IMG/VR virus record: IMGVR_UViG_3300017726_000029
Coordinates: 1 to 34,313 of that record
Source of the DNA: a virus
Reading direction: 5' to 3' (one strand)
DNA length: 34,313 nt
In this document: positions 1-34,313 of the stretch, piece by piece
Position numbering within the stretch: position 1 is the stretch's first letter
How the letters are laid out: the number at the start of each line of letters is the position of its first letter
Position numbers and translations under genes: made by a program
Notes under the pieces: model-generated
The model's input: only the letters and a program-made list of their open reading frames with translations
Told to the model about the DNA's origin: nothing
Database searches by the model: none

Positions 1-46
1 AGGGGCTGTGCGCTTCGGGTCACTTGACCCTACTCCCTTGCGGGAT
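1..46. repeat. 46-bp terminal direct repeat (left copy)
   Basis: Bases 1-46 are identical to 34268-34313. An exact overlap of this size at both ends of a contig is the usual mark of a circular molecule, or a circularly permuted phage genome, cut at an arbitrary position. The unique circle is then 34267 bp. The overlap lies inside the capsid-gene intron and covers its P7.1, P7.2 and P3 3' strands, so it is not a dedicated terminal repeat at a gene boundary. Confidence 0.95.
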
Positions 47-176
47 AGTCGTTGCACCTTCCTCAATATGAGGCTTGGCTCAGGATTGCCCACGCCATCA
101 TGCGTTTGGGTATCCCCTGAGTTCACACAGTTCTTCATGTGCAGATTACTCTGCAATGGCCCTAGTGGTATGTATA
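1..176 (-). ncRNA. Group I intron, 5' part (P1 to P8 5' strand), in the major capsid gene
   Basis: Read on the minus strand, this begins at 176, just after exon base 177, and continues through base 1 into 34267. Helices that can be paired by eye: P1 (exon GCCU 180-177 with GGGC 162-159, giving the U-G pair at the splice site), P2 (155-150/145-140, GUAA loop), P3 (CUGUGUG 130-124 with CGCACAG 12-6), P4 (CUCAGG 121-116 with CCUGAG 84-79), P5 (about 110-107/92-89), P6/P6a (73-69/65-61), the P7 5' strand GACUAU (50-45), P7.1 (44-35, GCAA loop) and P7.2 (30-17). The string GGGCAAUCCUGAGCC is the classic group I Q-type core sequence. Two extra hairpins between P7 and P3 point to subgroup IA, the type common in phages. 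There is no internal ORF or homing endonuclease. Confidence 0.93.
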
Positions 177-1055
177 AGGCGTTACCATGGCGTCTTGGTT
201 GACGGACATCTTTGCTTCACCTGGAACGAAATCCCGTGACGCTGCTACCTCAAGACGGAGATAGTCAGTGTTCAGGAAATACATCCTGTTGGTGTTACAT
301 GCGGAATCAAAGACCACATCACTATTCAGATACTGAACGCTGGTGAAACCAGAGTTTGCCAGATCGTCACTGGTGATGCGCTGGATGGCCTGAAGGCTAC
401 CCAAGAACGCCTTGTAGGCATTGGTGCCAGCCATCACAAGGTCAGGGCTGTCAGCGCCACGAACCAGTTGCAGATAGATGTTGTTCATATCTGCCTGGAC
501 GTTTGAGGTGCTGAACGCGCTTGACGTTGCAGTGGTTTGGACGTTTTGCCAAAAGGTGTAGGTGCTTGAGTTAATCCCACCCACTGTGCCGGTGCCTGCA
601 TCAGCCACGATTAGCTGAAGACCACCAACCTCTTTACCAGATGAACCAGTGCCATCTGAATAGATTGATGTGGACAGGCTGTTCATCATCGACTTTTCAA
701 GCACATTGATGCGTGCCTCAAGCAGATTGATGATGGCCTCTGTGCCAGAGTTTTTGACTTGCTCCAAGCCAGAGATGGTGACGTTACCGGCAAGCTGCTT
801 ATACTCAAAGACAGCAGCAGACAGAACGTCTGATGGTGAGACATCAAGTGTCTCATAGCCTGAATAGAACTGCACAGTCCCATTGTCGGCATACTCAAGT
901 TCGCGGACAATATCCCGTCCTGTCACAGACGTTTGATTGCCATTCTCGCGTAGTCTACGCAGCAACGCATTGTGGTTGCTTACGTTGTCAGAAAGCGTCC
1001 GGCTACGATTCCGCAGCGTGGTCGTGACGATTTCTGAAAGATTAGGACTAGCCAT
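177..1055 (-). CDS. Major capsid protein, exon 1 (293 codons)
   Basis: This encodes the main head subunit of a short-tailed marine-type phage. The N-terminal region (VRELEYADNG, then YSGYETLDVSPSD) and the following helix-rich part match the capsid family I recognise from marine podovirus-like genomes. A good ribosome site (AGGAG, 7 nt upstream) precedes ATG 1055, and the scaffold gene ends 4 nt upstream. Without splicing, the frame runs 15 bases into the intron and stops at TAG 164-162, giving a 297-residue protein with an odd TYH ending that lacks the usual family C-terminus. Joining base 177 to 34176 gives ...DAMVTP plus MFWSGNLTCSN..., which restores the expected ending in a 313-residue protein. 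The splice-site choice rests on frame, the P1 pairing and this ending. Confidence 0.93.
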
Positions 1056-1058
1056 TTA

Positions 1059-2150
1059 CTAGCTCCTTCCATTTTCCAGTTGTCTAATTGACGCATTGAT
1101 TGTGTCACGAATAGACGCATTCGCTGGAAGCGCGGGCGCGGCTGGTGTTGCACTGCCTCTGACTTTTGACCTGGCTGCTTTCTTCGCTTTCTTGACCGCC
1201 TCTGTCTTCACATTGTCTTGCGACTGTGCGGCGGCCATTGCCTTGACTTGCTCTTGACGCAGTTCTGGATCGGCATAGACCGCCATCTCATACGCGCTGT
1301 TCAAGTCTTTGGCATTTTCAGAACTGATTAGCGTCCCCATCACGCCGCGCACTCTTTCAAAGTGCGGGTGCTTTGGATTACCGTTTGCATCAGTTTCTGC
1401 TGCGAATTGGTCAATCAGTGACTGCGTGCTGGCCTGTACCTGGCTCTGCTGCTGTGTCTGTTGATTCTGTATAAAGCCAGTTAGCTGGGCAACTTGTTGC
1501 TGCAACTGCTTTACTTGCGGGTCTGCATATTCATCCTCTAGCGCTGGGTCGTTGCCGACTGCACCCACATCCACGCCGTACTGGTTTGCAAGCCAGGCAA
1601 TGGCGTTTTGAGGGTCTTTTCGCAGATAGTCATGGGCAGCAAGCAGTTGTCTGACCGCTGCCACCTCGTCCATGCCAGCACGCTCAAAATCGCTTTTGTG
1701 CGGCTTCATGATCTCGTCGAACGCTTCCTGTCGCTTGCGATACTGCGCCAAGGCTTGCGTTTTCTTTGTGTAGTCGCCTTCCAGGTCTTTATAGCGCTCC
1801 ATGAACATATGCTGTGCAGCAGGCTCAAGCGCTTCAAACTTTTCGGCAAAATCTTTTGGCCAATGGTTGGGCGCGGCCAGCGCCTCTAGTTCAGCGGGTT
1901 CATCTTCTTCAGCTTCTGCCTCATCCGCCTCATCAACCTCTGCATCCGGCTCATCAGGCTGTTCATCTGTCTGTTCATCTGTCTCTGGAGCCTCTGGTAG
2001 CGTATCAGCCACTTCTGCTGGTTGCGCTTCATCTGCTTCACCTTCAAATGACTGGAGTGTCTTTGCCAGTGTTTCGGCTACGGTTTCGGGCCTTGCTGGC
2101 TCCGCTGCTGGGGTCGTTGCCTCAACTTCAGGAGTGCTATCAAGCTGCAT
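1059..2150 (-). CDS. Capsid scaffolding protein
   Basis: This 363-residue protein is encoded directly upstream of the capsid gene, where tailed phages keep their scaffold. Residues about 20-95 are very acidic and low in complexity (Glu, Asp, Ala and Pro rich). They are followed by a helical region with a Gln-rich coiled coil (around QQQVAQLTGFIQNQQTQQQ) and a basic C-terminus (KKAKKAARSK). An acidic start, a coiled coil and a basic capsid-binding tail are the usual build of phage scaffolds, which nucleate procapsid assembly and are then expelled. No protease motif was seen, so maturation by a fused protease is unlikely. The assignment rests on position and composition, as scaffolds diverge quickly. 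Confidence 0.85.
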   Translation of the reverse strand: MQLDSTPEVEATTPAAEPARPETVAETLAKTLQSFEGEADEAQPAEVADTLPEAPETDEQTDEQPDEPDAEVDEADEAEAEEDEPAELEALAAPNHWPKDFAEKFEALEPAAQHMFMERYKDLEGDYTKKTQALAQYRKRQEAFDEIMKPHKSDFERAGMDEVAAVRQLLAAHDYLRKDPQNAIAWLANQYGVDVGAVGNDPALEDEYADPQVKQLQQQVAQLTGFIQNQQTQQQSQVQASTQSLIDQFAAETDANGNPKHPHFERVRGVMGTLISSENAKDLNSAYEMAVYADPELRQEQVKAMAAAQSQDNVKTEAVKKAKKAARSKVRGSATPAAPALPANASIRDTINASIRQLENGRS

Positions 2151-2581: not shown

Positions 2582-3546
2582 GTGAAGTCCGTTGGGTTGC
2601 CAAACAGGTTGAGATTTGGTGCGGCTTGGTCAGGCATGGTCATGTTCCGCGTTTGCAACAGATCGACCAAAGTGTTCGGCGCATATCCGTATGGCTGGAA
2701 CAGGTTGCCCGCGCCGCTATAGAGGTAATACGGGTTCCGCAGATAATTGATTGCCAGATCATCAATCTGTTCTGGTGTGGTGGTGCCGGGGTCAACTGCT
2801 GGTGGCGGGGCTGATGCCTGCATCATTTGCTGAGTTTCATCACCGCTTTGCACCTCATTCTGTCCAGCAGTGCCGCGCACCAAACCTTGAAAGGCACCTT
2901 CATAGTTTGGGTCATTGACGCCGCTGTAAACAACCCCACCAAACGGATTCATGCTGAGTGTACCCCGCCCAGCCTGTGCGCCAGAAACCAAGCCGGTTTG
3001 CGGGTCACGCACCGCGCCTGGTAAAGACATCAACTGCCCTACATTAAACGCAGCCGCGTCGGCTGGGTCTGGCTGGTTGGTTAGCCCACCAAGTATGCCG
3101 CCACTCAGTATAGAGCCAATGCCCGTACCCGGCGCTGTGCCGCCATATAGGTCATCATAAGCGTCTGCAAAAAACCCACTCATTGGGTCATTTCGCCCTG
3201 GCGCACGATTAACACGATCACGCGGCGCTGGGCGGTCTGGGTTTGCAAGCGAATCTTGTGCCGCTTGGTTAATTAGCTGACGTGCGAGATCAGCCTGAGA
3301 GTCGTCGGCTGGCGGTGGCGTTTGTCGTGACGCAAGCGATTGAGATGCAGCTTGCTCCACTAGATTGAATGGGTCAGGCGAAATCTGACGAGAATCATCA
3401 ATGACGTTAGTTGTGCCTCGAACCATTGGGCGTCCACGCGCATCTGTCTGCGCGGGAGTGGCGCTCTCGCGTGCATCGTCAGCCGCGCTGCTACCGCCAT
3501 CGCTCTTGTAGCAGATGCGGTTTTCAATCAAGTAACTGCGAACCAT
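2578..3546 (-). CDS. Low-complexity virion-module protein
   Basis: This 322-residue protein is rich in Ala, Pro, Asp and Gln with long stretches likely to be disordered. Glycine-rich segments (GTAPGTGIGSILSGGILGG) are followed by a C-terminal part with repeated Asn and Tyr (NYLRNPYYLYSGAGNLFQPYG). The start overlaps the end of the HlyC-like gene, and AGGGG lies just upstream of ATG 3546. I see no known enzyme motif. Its place between the portal and scaffold genes suggests a minor head or internal virion protein, possibly one that travels with the DNA. That is an inference from position only. Confidence 0.65.
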   Translation of the reverse strand: MVRSYLIENRICYKSDGGSSAADDARESATPAQTDARGRPMVRGTTNVIDDSRQISPDPFNLVEQAASQSLASRQTPPPADDSQADLARQLINQAAQDSLANPDRPAPRDRVNRAPGRNDPMSGFFADAYDDLYGGTAPGTGIGSILSGGILGGLTNQPDPADAAAFNVGQLMSLPGAVRDPQTGLVSGAQAGRGTLSMNPFGGVVYSGVNDPNYEGAFQGLVRGTAGQNEVQSGDETQQMMQASAPPPAVDPGTTTPEQIDDLAINYLRNPYYLYSGAGNLFQPYGYAPNTLVDLLQTRNMTMPDQAAPNLNLFGNPTDFT

Positions 3547-3929
3547 CCCTTGCCCCTGCTAATGCGGTTTGCGCGTCCCAAGACGCCTTGGCCAAATATT
3601 GAACGCAGATGGTCGCGGCCTTCTCTTACCATCTGCCGCACGCCGCCATAGGGCGCGAGAAAATCAATCAGCCACAGGTTTTCACCTGCCTGCCAATCAT
3701 CTGGCTGCAACAGCCTGGTGCCGTCCCAGTATCCCTGCTGTGCCTCTTCATTCAGCATGGCCCAGGTGACAAAGCCGACAGGATTGCCTTCAGCCTCCCA
3801 GATGCGGAATTGCTGCAAGGCAATCGGCGGCAGGATTAAGCGGTGGATGTCATCAACGGTGTAATCGCAATATTCATCCGACTGGCCCATCAGCCAGGTT
3901 ATTTTGCCGACTGCTTCAGTGTTCTTCAT
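3528..3929 (-). CDS. HlyC-family (RTX toxin lysine acyltransferase-like) protein
   Basis: This 133-residue protein aligns without gaps to the core of HlyC/CyaC toxin-activating acyltransferases. Shared elements are the opening ITWLMGQS (HlyC VSWLWASS), LILPPIALQQFRIW (NVLPAIQANQYVLL), NPVGFVTWAMLNEE, the DDWQAGENLWLIDF block and APYGG. HlyC transfers an acyl chain from ACP to toxin lysines using His23 and Asp92. Asp is kept here (D89), but the position matching His23 is Tyr20. The protein is also shorter than HlyC (about 170 residues), lacking much of the C-terminal part. No RTX toxin gene is present. It sits between the portal and head genes, and homologues occur in other marine phages at similar places, so a virion-linked role is likely. 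Whether it still acylates anything is unknown. Confidence 0.85.
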   Translation of the reverse strand: MKNTEAVGKITWLMGQSDEYCDYTVDDIHRLILPPIALQQFRIWEAEGNPVGFVTWAMLNEEAQQGYWDGTRLLQPDDWQAGENLWLIDFLAPYGGVRQMVREGRDHLRSIFGQGVLGRANRISRGKGWFAVT

Positions 3930-5905
3930 CCGCTTGTCACAACCTTCGCAGCGTCAATCTCCAGCTTTTGCTGCTTGAAGGCTGCATCTTGCGCTGCCTT
4001 CTGCTGGTCAAGTTCGAGGCGTGCGACCTTCACTTGCGCGTCCGCTGCTGCCTGCTGTGTCTGCGCCTGTACCTTGGCGGCCTCTACCTCGACCAGCTTG
4101 TCTGTCGGGCTTGGGCCTGCCTGCGGTGCTTGGATGCTCTCAAGGCTTTCTTCCAGATCGCGTGCGCCAGGAAACGCCCGCGCTGCAAACAGCAGCATTT
4201 GCTTTGCCTGATCAAAGCCGACAGCGCCTGATGCCACCATTGGGCCGATTGCTTGAAGGAACTGCACGGCAGCGGTCAGGAATTCTGTGCGGCTGCGTTG
4301 CTCTGATGCGCTGTCCATCGCGCCAGATTCCTCAGTATCGACAGAGATACGATAAGAGCGCAGGCGCTCATCACGCATGACTGCGACCACCTCTGGCGAT
4401 ATGTTGATGCCTGTAATGCGTGACAGCAGTGACGGCTCAAGGTTTTCAACCATCAATTCGGCTTTCAGTTCCATAATCTGGTCTAGGAACTGTTCGACGC
4501 GCCGTTGCCGGTTGACAAGGCGCATGGCCCCGAACTGGCCCTTGATGCGCTGTGCTGTGGCTGTCTCACGGCTGGCCGACTGGCCGCGCATGATGTCGCT
4601 AATGCCGGTGATCTCATATATGGTCTGCACCACGATCTGGCGCGACTGATAAAGCTGTGCCAGCGCCTTGATTAGATTGTCCAGCGGTGCCTCTTGCATG
4701 ACGTTGGCCAGACCGCCACCGGCTTGCAGCATCGCCATGTTGTCCACCGGCACAAACTCATTGTCTGTGGCGTTAGCCAGGCGCTGCAATTCTTGGAATG
4801 ATGCGTCATATACACCGCGCCTTTTGAGCGCGTCAGTCAGGCTGGCAATCCGCTGTGTAATCAGATCAAGTTCAAATAGCTGGTCTTCATATGTCAGGAT
4901 TTCAGGCACAGGCAGCGTGGTGTCTGTCGTGCTGATGGCATATAGCGGCTCTGGCATAGGCCAGAAGCCTTCAAGATTATAGGGATCTTCAAACTCTTCT
5001 AAGATGTCATCAAAGTCAGTGGCTATGAATATCTGTTTCAGGCTGCGCTTGTCCCAGATTTCATAGACTTCAGCCATAGACGGCATCTGATTGTCATCAT
5101 AGCCGCTGTTGGTATCACCGTGATATGTGAGCGCGATTTGCTCACCCTTGGCCCCGTAATAGTCCACAAGTTCCTGGCGTGTCATCAGGTGCCGGAACGC
5201 AATCCAATGCACGTCCTCCCACGATCTGGCTGGCGACATGGTGAAATCAGCCCAATGCACATATTCACACCGGATTGATTGCTCACCGATATATTCAATC
5301 GGGTTGCCCTCCATGAACGCGCCCATGGCATCCATCTTGACCATGTCCTGATCAACGGCATTGCCCTCGCGGTCTACAAAGGACTGACCAATTGGCACCT
5401 CGCCCATCTGCCCTGGTGCCACCTCGCCAATACCCATCACATTATTGACTTGCAGGGGTATGCGCTCTGGATCGCCCTCGACCAGCAGCGGCTCATAGAC
5501 CATCCGCATGACGCCGCGCCCGACAATCAGCATGTCCTCAACCACACGCCGGACGGCTGCATCAAAGTTGTAGACATCAAGCTGATACTGCAAACCGCGT
5601 TGCAGGACAGTTGATATGATGCGCCCGATGGGGTCTTGGTCCTTGAACCGGCGTGTCACCCGCGGCTTTGGCGTCTTGAAATAGAGGCTTGATTTCAGCG
5701 TATCTACATTGCTGTAAAAGATATTCATCCGCGTTTCGCGTGTGGTGCGCTCCGGCGTGTCATCCCTGTATCTGTCAATGATGTCAAAGCAGCGGTCATG
5801 CCATGTTTCTTCAAACTTACGCGCACGCCTGATCTGATCATTCCAATACGCCGCACGATCAGCCTTTTTGGTAGGCTCACGGTCATATGTATAGGATTCA
5901 GCCAT
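3926..5905 (-). CDS. Portal protein
   Basis: This 659-residue protein forms the ring at the single head vertex through which DNA is packaged and ejected. Length, position directly after the large terminase, and content fit the large portals of short-tailed phages. The N-terminus is helical and charged (WNDQIRRARKFEETWHDRCF). The middle part has a YDDNQMPSMAEVYEIWDK block typical of these portals, and the stem/clip region carries ITGISDIMRGQSASRETATAQ. A long C-terminal coiled coil (VEVEAAKVQAQTQQAAADAQ onward) may form the barrel. The start is preceded by GGAG, and the gene abuts the terminase stop. Confidence is high for the role; the exact portal subfamily cannot be set without a profile search. 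Confidence 0.93.
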   Translation of the reverse strand: MAESYTYDREPTKKADRAAYWNDQIRRARKFEETWHDRCFDIIDRYRDDTPERTTRETRMNIFYSNVDTLKSSLYFKTPKPRVTRRFKDQDPIGRIISTVLQRGLQYQLDVYNFDAAVRRVVEDMLIVGRGVMRMVYEPLLVEGDPERIPLQVNNVMGIGEVAPGQMGEVPIGQSFVDREGNAVDQDMVKMDAMGAFMEGNPIEYIGEQSIRCEYVHWADFTMSPARSWEDVHWIAFRHLMTRQELVDYYGAKGEQIALTYHGDTNSGYDDNQMPSMAEVYEIWDKRSLKQIFIATDFDDILEEFEDPYNLEGFWPMPEPLYAISTTDTTLPVPEILTYEDQLFELDLITQRIASLTDALKRRGVYDASFQELQRLANATDNEFVPVDNMAMLQAGGGLANVMQEAPLDNLIKALAQLYQSRQIVVQTIYEITGISDIMRGQSASRETATAQRIKGQFGAMRLVNRQRRVEQFLDQIMELKAELMVENLEPSLLSRITGINISPEVVAVMRDERLRSYRISVDTEESGAMDSASEQRSRTEFLTAAVQFLQAIGPMVASGAVGFDQAKQMLLFAARAFPGARDLEESLESIQAPQAGPSPTDKLVEVEAAKVQAQTQQAAADAQVKVARLELDQQKAAQDAAFKQQKLEIDAAKVVTSG

Positions 5906-12056: not shown

Positions 12057-12322
12057 GCTGCTTGCTCCAGATCCCGCACCGCTATGCCTTGCGCTATGTC
12101 TGCCAGCGCCTCACGCAGATAGCCCAGCGTCAGCGTCCCAGGCTGGCCTTGCAGATAGCCTGGCAACGCCAGATGTGCTGCATCAGTGCTGCTGAACCAG
12201 CGACTGCTGTGACGCCTGACAGGCACGCCATACAATTCTGCAATATAGAAAAGACCGCGCCCGTCTTGGATCAGGCGGCTGATCTCACGATCTGCATCAG
12301 CCAGGGCTTCAGTGCGGGTCAT
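12053..12322 (-). CDS. Hypothetical early protein
   Basis: This 89-residue protein (MTRTEALADADREISRLIQDGRGLFYIAELYGVP...) overlaps its neighbours by four bases at each end. IAELYGVPVRR looks like the end of a helix-turn-helix, but the segment is too short to be sure. I do not recognise a family. Its tight coupling to the DpdA-like gene upstream suggests the two are made together. Confidence 0.65.
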   Translation of the reverse strand: MTRTEALADADREISRLIQDGRGLFYIAELYGVPVRRHSSRWFSSTDAAHLALPGYLQGQPGTLTLGYLREALADIAQGIAVRDLEQAA

Positions 12323-12999
12323 AGCGCCAACTCCTGCGCTTCAGGCTGGCGTGACCATTTGATAGGCGTCTGCACACCGTCTAAGCGCCTTGCCATCGCT
12401 TCTGCATCCATACCGCGATCTTTGTAGTTTCTCGCGACATTCACGCTGTCAGCACTGGCAAAAGGCCAACGCTTGCCTGTCAGGGCAAGACCACGCAGCA
12501 TATGAATGTGCGGCATGTATTGATGGGCTTGTGCTAGTGCGTTGAATGCTTTGTCAGCCCGTGAAGCCCAAGCCTCACTTTCAATCTGCCAATATTGTGC
12601 TGTGCTGCCAAAACAGACCCGTGGGTATCGGTCACAAAGAAAAAGCAAATAATCAATTGGCAGCCCCATGTGCCACACAGGCGCTGCCAGCTGGTTAGGA
12701 TAGGGCCATTCAGCAAGCAGCGCTTTTTGCTGCTCAACAGGCCCGTCAATGACATCAGGAATTACAGCCCAGTGTGGATGGCCCAGACGCGGCTCCAGCC
12801 ATGCATAATAGGCGCTGCGATCAAACATCAGCCCTTGCTTAAAACTGGTGAACGCCCCGTTATCCCACATGACGCTCTGACCAATCTGCAAGCAGATGTC
12901 TGCATCGTCTGGCCGCGCAAACGACACGCAGAAATGCTTTCCGGCCATAGCTAGAAGCTCCCTGCGTGGCGTCAGCGGCGTGCCGTGATAGTGAATCAC
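12319..12999 (-). CDS. DpdA/TGT-like base-exchange protein, putative DNA 7-deazaguanine transglycosylase
   Basis: This 226-residue protein starts at GTG 12999, chosen because AAGG lies 8 nt upstream, the codon overlaps the previous stop (GTGA), and homologues I recall begin MIHYHGTP. Motifs in order: PRRELLAMAGKHFCVSF, then SVMWDNGAF (Asp46, equivalent to the catalytic Asp of tRNA-guanine transglycosylases), WAVIPDVIDG (residues 78-86), APVWHMG, CFGS, HMLRG (166-170) and PFASADSVNVARN. These fit a TIM-barrel TGT relative of the DpdA type, which swaps guanine in DNA for preQ0 or related 7-deazaguanines. It lies two genes downstream of a queuosine-precursor transporter, supporting that role. 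Activity on DNA rather than tRNA is inferred. The short length compared with bacterial TGT (about 375 residues) is typical of phage forms. Confidence 0.75.
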   Translation of the reverse strand: MIHYHGTPLTPRRELLAMAGKHFCVSFARPDDADICLQIGQSVMWDNGAFTSFKQGLMFDRSAYYAWLEPRLGHPHWAVIPDVIDGPVEQQKALLAEWPYPNQLAAPVWHMGLPIDYLLFLCDRYPRVCFGSTAQYWQIESEAWASRADKAFNALAQAHQYMPHIHMLRGLALTGKRWPFASADSVNVARNYKDRGMDAEAMARRLDGVQTPIKWSRQPEAQELAL

Positions 13000-13253
13000 T
13001 GACTTGCCTTCCAAGACGACTCAATGGTGATTGCTTTATGGATGCCTTTGAGACGACCTGATGCTTGCGGAAATTTTAAGGCAAACTGTTCTGCCAGATG
13101 TTCTTGCAAAGCAGGCTCACCCTTGTTGAACGCACAATCCACGATGTCCTCTGCCATCGTCGTATTGTCTGTTTTTAAGGTGAGCTTGTAATGAATTTCC
13201 TCACCATCAATCGGGCAAGCAGAAATGAAGCTGAGTTTATATGTGTGCTTCAT
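12996..13253 (-). CDS. Small protein with possible T-fold (QueD-like) resemblance
   Basis: This 85-residue protein lies between the transporter and the DpdA-like gene and overlaps both. By eye, FISACPIDGEEIHYKLTLKT, then PALQEHLAEQFALKFP, then HKAITIESSW resemble the strand, helix and strand order of QueD (6-carboxytetrahydropterin synthase) and related T-fold enzymes. It is shorter, and the zinc-binding histidines of QueD are absent. If the likeness is real, it would be a non-catalytic or altered T-fold subunit. Otherwise it is an unknown partner of the base-modification genes. A structure prediction would settle the fold. Confidence 0.5.
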   Translation of the reverse strand: MKHTYKLSFISACPIDGEEIHYKLTLKTDNTTMAEDIVDCAFNKGEPALQEHLAEQFALKFPQASGRLKGIHKAITIESSWKASQ

Positions 13254-13725
13254 GCTTGCGCCTCTGTAGCAAGTACATCACAACAAAAGCACCGACCATT
13301 TTGCTAAGCGTCATCAGCACGACGCCACCAATGCTGAAGTAGCCAATCATTGCAAGGAAGACAGCGCTATCAAGCGGGGTGCCAACCGCCGACGAGATCA
13401 CAATGCGCTGGTGCAAAGGCCGTTTTGACCAGGTGTAAACCAGCCAGTCAGCAGTCTCGCTAATTAAGAAGGCAACTACCGATGCGACCGCCACAAACGG
13501 ATCTGCTAAGTAGTAGCTCAACAATGCGCCGATCAGCATTGCCCCGATCACTCGATGGCCTATTTCACGCTGGCTGAAGTCCCTCAGTACGAAAATCAGG
13601 CCAACCAATAGCGACATCGGTGGCCACATTTCACCTAAAAGCGGCATCGGCGGCACATAAACAAAGCCGATATTCACAGCTAAGATGCAAGCCACATAGG
13701 CAATAGAATACTTGTATGCGTTCAT
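13237..13725 (-). CDS. Queuosine precursor transporter (YhhQ/VUT family)
   Basis: This 162-residue integral membrane protein starts at ATG 13725 behind a purine-rich GAGGGAGAAGA site and overlaps the previous stop (ATGA). About five hydrophobic helices are visible (SIAYVACILAVNIGFVYV, SLLVGLIFVL, ALLSYYLADPFVAVASVVAF and two near the C-terminus). Family marks are VLRDFSQREIGHRVI, the SETADWLVYTW segment and SSAVGTPLDSAVFL. YhhQ proteins import preQ0/preQ1, the 7-deazaguanine precursors of queuosine. A phage copy beside a DpdA-like gene suggests it feeds DNA modification by salvage. E. coli YhhQ is longer (about 220 residues), but short phage versions are known. Substrate is inferred from family and context. 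Confidence 0.82.
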   Translation of the reverse strand: MNAYKYSIAYVACILAVNIGFVYVPPMPLLGEMWPPMSLLVGLIFVLRDFSQREIGHRVIGAMLIGALLSYYLADPFVAVASVVAFLISETADWLVYTWSKRPLHQRIVISSAVGTPLDSAVFLAMIGYFSIGGVVLMTLSKMVGAFVVMYLLQRRKHEAHI

Positions 13726-13967
13726 TCTTCTTCTCCCTCTGTTAATTCGACATATCCCTGGCCATGGCACACCGGACATTCGCCATGGCGCGTGTCTATG
13801 AACCCGCTGCCAGTGCGATAGTCTGGCACCGCATATTCAACCTCACACTCGCCCTGCCCCTCGCAATGGCCACACTCTGGCAGTTCTTCCCAAAGGCCAG
13901 GCACCCTGCAAATGCGAACTAGCCGCGGCGGTATCTCACTGAAGCCCCTAGCCACCTTCGGCCTCAC
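13722..13967 (-). CDS. DnaJ-type zinc-finger protein
   Basis: This 81-residue protein has two CxxCxGxG-type repeats (CGHCEGQG and CPVCHGQG), the repeat that builds the zinc module of DnaJ, separated by about 25 residues. It has no J domain. The start given is GTG 13967; GTG 13955, with GAGG upstream, is an alternative. It ends in an acidic tail (LTEGEEE) that overlaps the transporter start. Small free-standing proteins of this type are common in phages, with unknown roles; protein or nucleic-acid binding is expected. Confidence 0.75.
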   Translation of the reverse strand: MRPKVARGFSEIPPRLVRICRVPGLWEELPECGHCEGQGECEVEYAVPDYRTGSGFIDTRHGECPVCHGQGYVELTEGEEE

Positions 13968-33624: not shown

Positions 33625-34098
33625 TTACAGTGGGAATGTGCAGATAATTTCCTTATCTGAAATATCCCCAGCAATAGCGCAGATGTTATCGGTGGCTGCT
33701 GATGCAACATCTAGTGTGCCATCAGCGCTGCCTGTTGGTGTCAACGGATCACCGTCAGCACCAGCCGTGAGCGCAATGGTCAGCGTTGCTACTCCAGTCA
33801 CCTGGAACCAGCCATATTGACCATCCGTCATTACTGCCTGAATTACACCCGCGCCGACCTCTACGGAATCGGACAGATCGCTAGTGGCCTTAAAGGTCTT
33901 GTAGCCATCATTTGTGTAATAATAGGCAACCTCACCAGCGACAGCCGCCGTACCAGCAGAACCAGTATCATACTGAAGATACTTATACATTCTGGTGCCA
34001 TTGGTGTCGTCAATGATCGCACCAAGCTGACCCAACTGAAACTCAGGAGTGTCAGCGACTGCTGTAGGGTCAATACCCATTACTGCTGCAATAGCCAT
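33625..34098 (-). CDS. Capsid decoration protein, putative
   Basis: This 157-residue beta-rich, acidic protein (MAIAAVMGIDPTAVADTPEF, then GTRMYKYLQYD and GEVAYYYTNDGYKTFKATSD) is encoded directly after the capsid gene, with a strong AGGAGA site. Composition and place are those of head decoration or cement proteins that bind the capsid shell. The C-terminus ends DISDKEIICTFPL. It is followed by a terminator. Confidence 0.8.
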   Translation of the reverse strand: MAIAAVMGIDPTAVADTPEFQLGQLGAIIDDTNGTRMYKYLQYDTGSAGTAAVAGEVAYYYTNDGYKTFKATSDLSDSVEVGAGVIQAVMTDGQYGWFQVTGVATLTIALTAGADGDPLTPTGSADGTLDVASAATDNICAIAGDISDKEIICTFPL

Positions 34099-34176: not shown

Positions 34177-34313
34177 CGTGATGTTCGCCTTGGTTCGTTA
34201 GGCCAAGACCGCCTTGCGGCTGCTTATGCTTTCACATAAGACCAGACTATATCATCACCCTGATTACAGGGGCTGTGCGCTTCGGGTCACTTGACCCTAC
34301 TCCCTTGCGGGAT
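34177..34313 (-). ncRNA. Group I intron, 3' part (P8 to P9, 3' splice site)
   Basis: On the circle this continues from base 1 at 34267; 34268-34313 duplicates 1-46. P8 is CCCUG (4-1 and 34267) with CAGGG (34262-34258) around a UAAU loop. The P7 3' strand AUAGUC (34250-34245), within the S-type string GAUAUAGUC, pairs perfectly with GACUAU at 50-45. P9 is the CUUAUG/CAUAAG hairpin near 34240-34222, followed by a CCGC/GCGG hairpin and a CUUGG/CCAAG hairpin. The terminal G is 34177. The total intron length is 267 nt on the circle. Confidence 0.92.
34268..34313. repeat. 46-bp terminal direct repeat (right copy)
   Basis: This is identical to bases 1-46 and joins the contig into a circle. The duplicated piece belongs to the intron P7.1, P7.2 and P3 strands and should be counted once. 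Confidence 0.95.

Follow-up and report, generated by a model that had tools for sequence, protein, structure and literature searches.

The window (the whole stretch of DNA analysed, 34,313 nt) begins and ends with the same 46 bases, identical in the terminal comparison, and because of this exact overlap is taken to be a circular IMG/VR phage record of 34,267 bp. Across the join runs a major capsid gene whose frame, on the minus strand, starts at 1055 and comes to an abnormal stop at TAG 164-162 with the end PYTYH, the protein matching phrog_9953 'major head protein' (E 8.9e-90). The features of the locus, with exon limits set from intronless relatives, are these.

1059..2150, minus strand: gene upstream of the capsid gene, a scaffold candidate from its position
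177..1055, minus strand: first capsid exon (293 codons), ending in DAMVTP, final base U177
1..176, minus strand: 5' part of the intron, with the 3' strand of P1, P2, P3 to P7.2 and the start of the P8 region; the in-frame stop TAG 164-162 lies within P1
34177..34267, minus strand: 3' part of the intron, with P8, the P7 3' strand inside GAUAUAGUC, P9, later hairpins and the terminal G34177
34114..34176, minus strand: exon 2, 20 codons and a stop, encoding MFWSGNLTCSNRALQGVIHT
33625..34098, minus strand: gene downstream of exon 2, a small protein with family unassigned, whose counterpart in locus L062 holds an intron
34268..34313, no strand assigned: terminal direct repeat of 46 bp, a copy of 1-46 that closes the circle

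The gene at 1059..2150 probably encodes the scaffold, its counterpart in phage C72C1 being annotated as a head scaffolding protein. AlphaFold2 gave a mean pLDDT of 39 for the capsid protein of an intronless relative (L002), and this model was set aside. No tRNA genes were found in the window, and a scan of genome contigs turned up nothing nearer than distant relatives, which came from three alphaproteobacterial genomes, for which reason no close host is named. Elsewhere on the minus strand, at 12319-13014 and 13237-13779, a queuine tRNA-ribosyltransferase-like gene (phrog_887, E 3.3e-42) adjoins a Vut_1-type transporter gene (PF02592); together they may serve the modification of DNA with 7-deazaguanine, with the assignment of the former as DpdA putative.

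A sequence-only reading had proposed that the capsid gene is split by a 267-nt group I intron, and that the missing family C-terminus follows in frame behind the 3' splice site; it named the Rfam model RF00028 as a check. This has stood up well. Removal in silico of 267 nt without an ORF (176..1 plus 34267..34177, boundaries 177/176 and 34177/34176) gives a 313-residue capsid ORF, in which VTP is followed directly by MFWSGNLTCSNRALQGVIHT, as in the intronless relatives; the uninterrupted C-terminus is present as an exact empty site in about 75 of the 80 related loci. Rfam, covariation, these empty sites and phrog_9953 are in agreement, and a group I intron splitting the gene at these boundaries is strongly supported. 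The span of 1-176 given earlier does belong to the intron but is only its 5' two thirds, the remainder being at 34177-34267.

On the linear window the halves match RF00028 at 33.3 bits (E 5.6e-5) and 22.2 bits (E 0.11), below the curated gathering cut-off of 50 bits because the record ends split the intron. Contiguous full-length copies in five other loci (L024, L054, L106, L113 and L139), each with 1-3 mismatches to the window over the 267 bases, score 66.7-71.4 bits. These copies lie inside their contigs, and match each other and the window at 263-267 of the 267 positions. That the join arose by misassembly was considered, and rejected on the ground that the intron is contiguous in all five.

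The helices listed from the letters, P3 (7 bp), P4 (6 bp), P5, P6, P7 (6 bp), P7.1, P7.2, P8 and P9, are all present and most covary. P1 is formed by GCC-U177 with G162-GGC, with extra pairs 176-163 and 175-164, so that both group I hallmarks, the U177.G162 pair at the end of the 5' exon (also foreseen) and an intron-terminal G (G34177), are in place. P10, already thought weak, amounts to about 2 pairs as judged by eye. The GAACAU ahead of the terminal G can pair with the start of exon 2, AUGUUC, which might slow exon joining. In an alignment of 31 related introns, 90.9% of the cells of the pairing scheme are paired and 269 cells show double changes, versus 92 in shuffles, with slid controls all far below the true scheme. 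P4 and P7 are essentially invariant and the core residues likewise kept, while P3, P5, P6a, P7.1, P7.2 and P9 covary and the support for P8 is weak. What emerges is a group I core, P3-P8 with the P7 pseudoknot, backed by covariation, and the two covarying hairpins that separate P7 from the 3' strand of P3, P7.1 and P7.2, suggest an IA-like subgroup.

Introns are found at four places in this capsid family:

within codon 14: L054, L058, L061, L062, L063
between codons 59 and 60: L106, L139
within codon 290: L063
between codons 293 and 294: the window, L024, L054, L106, L113, L139

Four capsid genes (L054, L063, L106 and L139) thus have two introns each. The introns at codons 59/60 (L106:2660-2845 and L139:9567-9752, minus strand) are identical to each other with differing exons, have a low Rfam score of 51.5 and are without the GATATAGTC string. 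The intron of L062 in the small gene directly downstream of its capsid gene (3514-3766, plus strand) scores 82.7 bits.

With very high confidence the locus is read as a self-splicing, ORF-less, IA-like group I intron that interrupts the gene for the major capsid protein in a temperate phage, and that probably spread at the DNA level, most likely with help from a nuclease acting in trans. The precursor RNA would fold into the ribozyme core, guanosine-dependent cutting would occur after U177, and joining of U177 to A34176 would yield the full 313-residue capsid protein, an exact restoration if the intronless relatives are the guide. Since the stop codon is inside P1, translation of the unspliced message would end after 297 residues, with PYTYH at the C-terminus. 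We infer splicing in cells from the structure, the boundaries and the empty sites. Among the intron-bearing loci exon 2 has synonymous differences only, which indicates that the spliced frame is under selection, with exon 2 still translated in frame; this is the strongest indirect evidence for splicing. It is very improbable that the intron is inactive, with the phage genome defective or a truncated capsid in use. Such a view could draw on the weakness of P10 and on splicing being here a prediction from sequence, but it has to contend with core residues and P4/P7 that are invariant with those of the relatives, and with the retention of intron and synonymous-only exon 2 in six contigs. Still less credible is a gene truly in two parts, translated with no splicing into a 297-aa protein and, from a start of its own, a 20-residue peptide: exon 2 does begin with ATG and there is an AAGG stretch slightly upstream, but that ATG is the conserved family Met, the insert is a covarying ribozyme, and relatives with introns at codons 14, 59/60 and 290 resume at no such start.

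How did the self-splicing intron come to be in these phages? Its identity is 98.5-100% between phages with far more diverged exons. Mean 5' exon identity among the intron-bearing loci declines with distance, from 98% (0-60 nt) through 93% (60-240) and 82% (240-480) to 79% (480-780), whereas for intronless pairs of comparable far-region distance the identity stays at about 80-82% throughout. Every intron-bearing gene has T at base -1; of the 76 intronless ones, 53 have A there, 13 have T and 10 have G, a further sign that the flank arrived with the intron. Sporadic presence together with such flanks is what is expected of a mobile intron, and the gradient resembles co-conversion, a picture that recombination and subsequent selection could also produce. 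A homing endonuclease was found neither in the intron, which is without an ORF, nor among the window genes scanned (small ORFs in part). As neither encodes a nuclease, one acting in trans most likely helps spread. By the route so inferred the intron would move among related phages as DNA, via recombination or homing, and co-convert the flanking exon.

Contrary to the earlier impression that a capsid location is unusual, published capsid introns exist (PMC3706429) and in IMG/VR this intron subtype is found most often in capsid genes. The core of the window's intron, taken as DNA free of exon sequence (pattern A), returned 82 IMG/VR stretches of which 80 were usable loci, and major capsid genes host 55 of these (33/51 without near-duplicates). 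The capsid families include SU10, T7 gp10A-like, HK97, phrog_1357, phrog_3437, phrog_334 and the window's own. With the core of the codon-14 intron type (pattern B), capsid genes account for 30/80 among the matches listed (25/67 without near-duplicates), and with a core near the Rfam consensus (pattern C) for 8/80 (8/64), the remainder there being DNA and RNA polymerases, terminase and others. The difference between A and C (Fisher, p = 5.5e-9) is to be read with the derivation of patterns A and B from capsid introns, and the differing habitats of the scans, in mind. A locus was called capsid if it resembled validated seeds no more than 450 nt from the core, and the counts are accordingly likely to be lower bounds. 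Relatives of the intron occupy capsid genes across a wide range of unrelated aquatic phages, far in excess of expectation. Most introns of the window's subtype have no ORF, and the enrichment in capsid genes is specific to that subtype. Beside a second intron subtype in scan B (L182 and relatives), at least 7 exon peptides match photosystem II D1 (psbA), a gene in which cyanophage introns are known.

The closest introns outside the window's family are in SU10-type capsid genes. Those of L124, L134 and L144 are about 85% identical and have the same P1 target and guide, yet their capsid family (PF17236 / phrog_1328) is unrelated. Another SU10-type capsid gene (L145, minus strand) has three group I (Rfam) matches over about 1 kb, at 4496-4699, 4798-5017 and 5256-5467. 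L063 carries its codon-290 intron 11 nt from the window's site; this intron groups with those of SU10-type L086/L117 (support 98/97, with the bootstrap not fully settled) rather than with the window's, and therefore the two insertions look independent.

There is a rather unlikely further proposition about the route of spread which does not conflict with the self-splicing reading: that a capsid-associated lineage moved by guide-directed reverse splicing into abundant late capsid mRNA, then reverse transcription and recombination, and not by nuclease homing alone. Six unrelated sites, spread over four capsid families, have the P1 target GCC-U and guide GGGC in common, which is compatible with guide-directed insertion, short of proof; the cross-family grouping of the L063 codon-290 intron, and a subtype that is mostly ORF-less with an enrichment of its own, point the same way. 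Against this, the flank gradient and altered base -1 at the window's site indicate DNA recombination, a source of reverse transcriptase would be needed, and the common guide may be plain inheritance. That move was not carried by a fixed guide, as L086/L117 and L063 differ in theirs. It is put forward tentatively, as a possibility, that aquatic-phage major capsid genes are the target of one tiny, mostly ORF-less lineage crossing unrelated capsid families, with 2-3 introns per gene, perhaps via reverse splicing into abundant mRNA.

In kind the window's intron is ordinary, a known type of element. Mycobacteriophage LittleE has an intron in its major capsid gene, the splicing of which was demonstrated by RT-PCR and by N-terminal sequencing of the protein, and like the window's phage is temperate; however, it is a Mycobacterium siphovirus and its intron, 'most likely group I', is 819 bp with a LAGLIDADG-like ORF, in contrast to 267 nt and no ORF (PMC3706429). 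Lactococcal phage Tuc2009, as cited in that source, also has a capsid-gene group I intron, in a different host and phage (PMC3706429). For Jug phages, thousands of small group I introns (~206 nt) in essential genes are described, part of them confirmed by metatranscriptomes; these are huge gut phages, and the intron hosts named there are terL, nrdD and DNA polymerase (PMC12363816). In the phage collection the best match to the window's intron is the one in phage C72C1 (OQ984150.1), which is 81.8% identical over the aligned part, has an Rfam score of 81.8 bits and also splits the major head gene, with capsid families perhaps distinct and no intron annotated in the record. In that record (L524:1152-2353) 'major head protein' is divided between two CDSs, and the stretch separating them, in which the unannotated group I intron lies, has been given small reverse CDSs.

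In the literature searched, most subscription journals lying outside it, no survey was found that identifies capsid genes as the chief host of a group I subtype, and the capsid-associated lineage of small introns seems undescribed so far. The capsid-biased lineage is the part worth follow-up. Small introns make capsid genes liable to be called as truncated or split, with skewing of capsid annotation and of marine-virus marker-gene surveys, and the capsid bias of one subtype affords a direct test of reverse splicing into abundant messages versus nucleases acting in trans.
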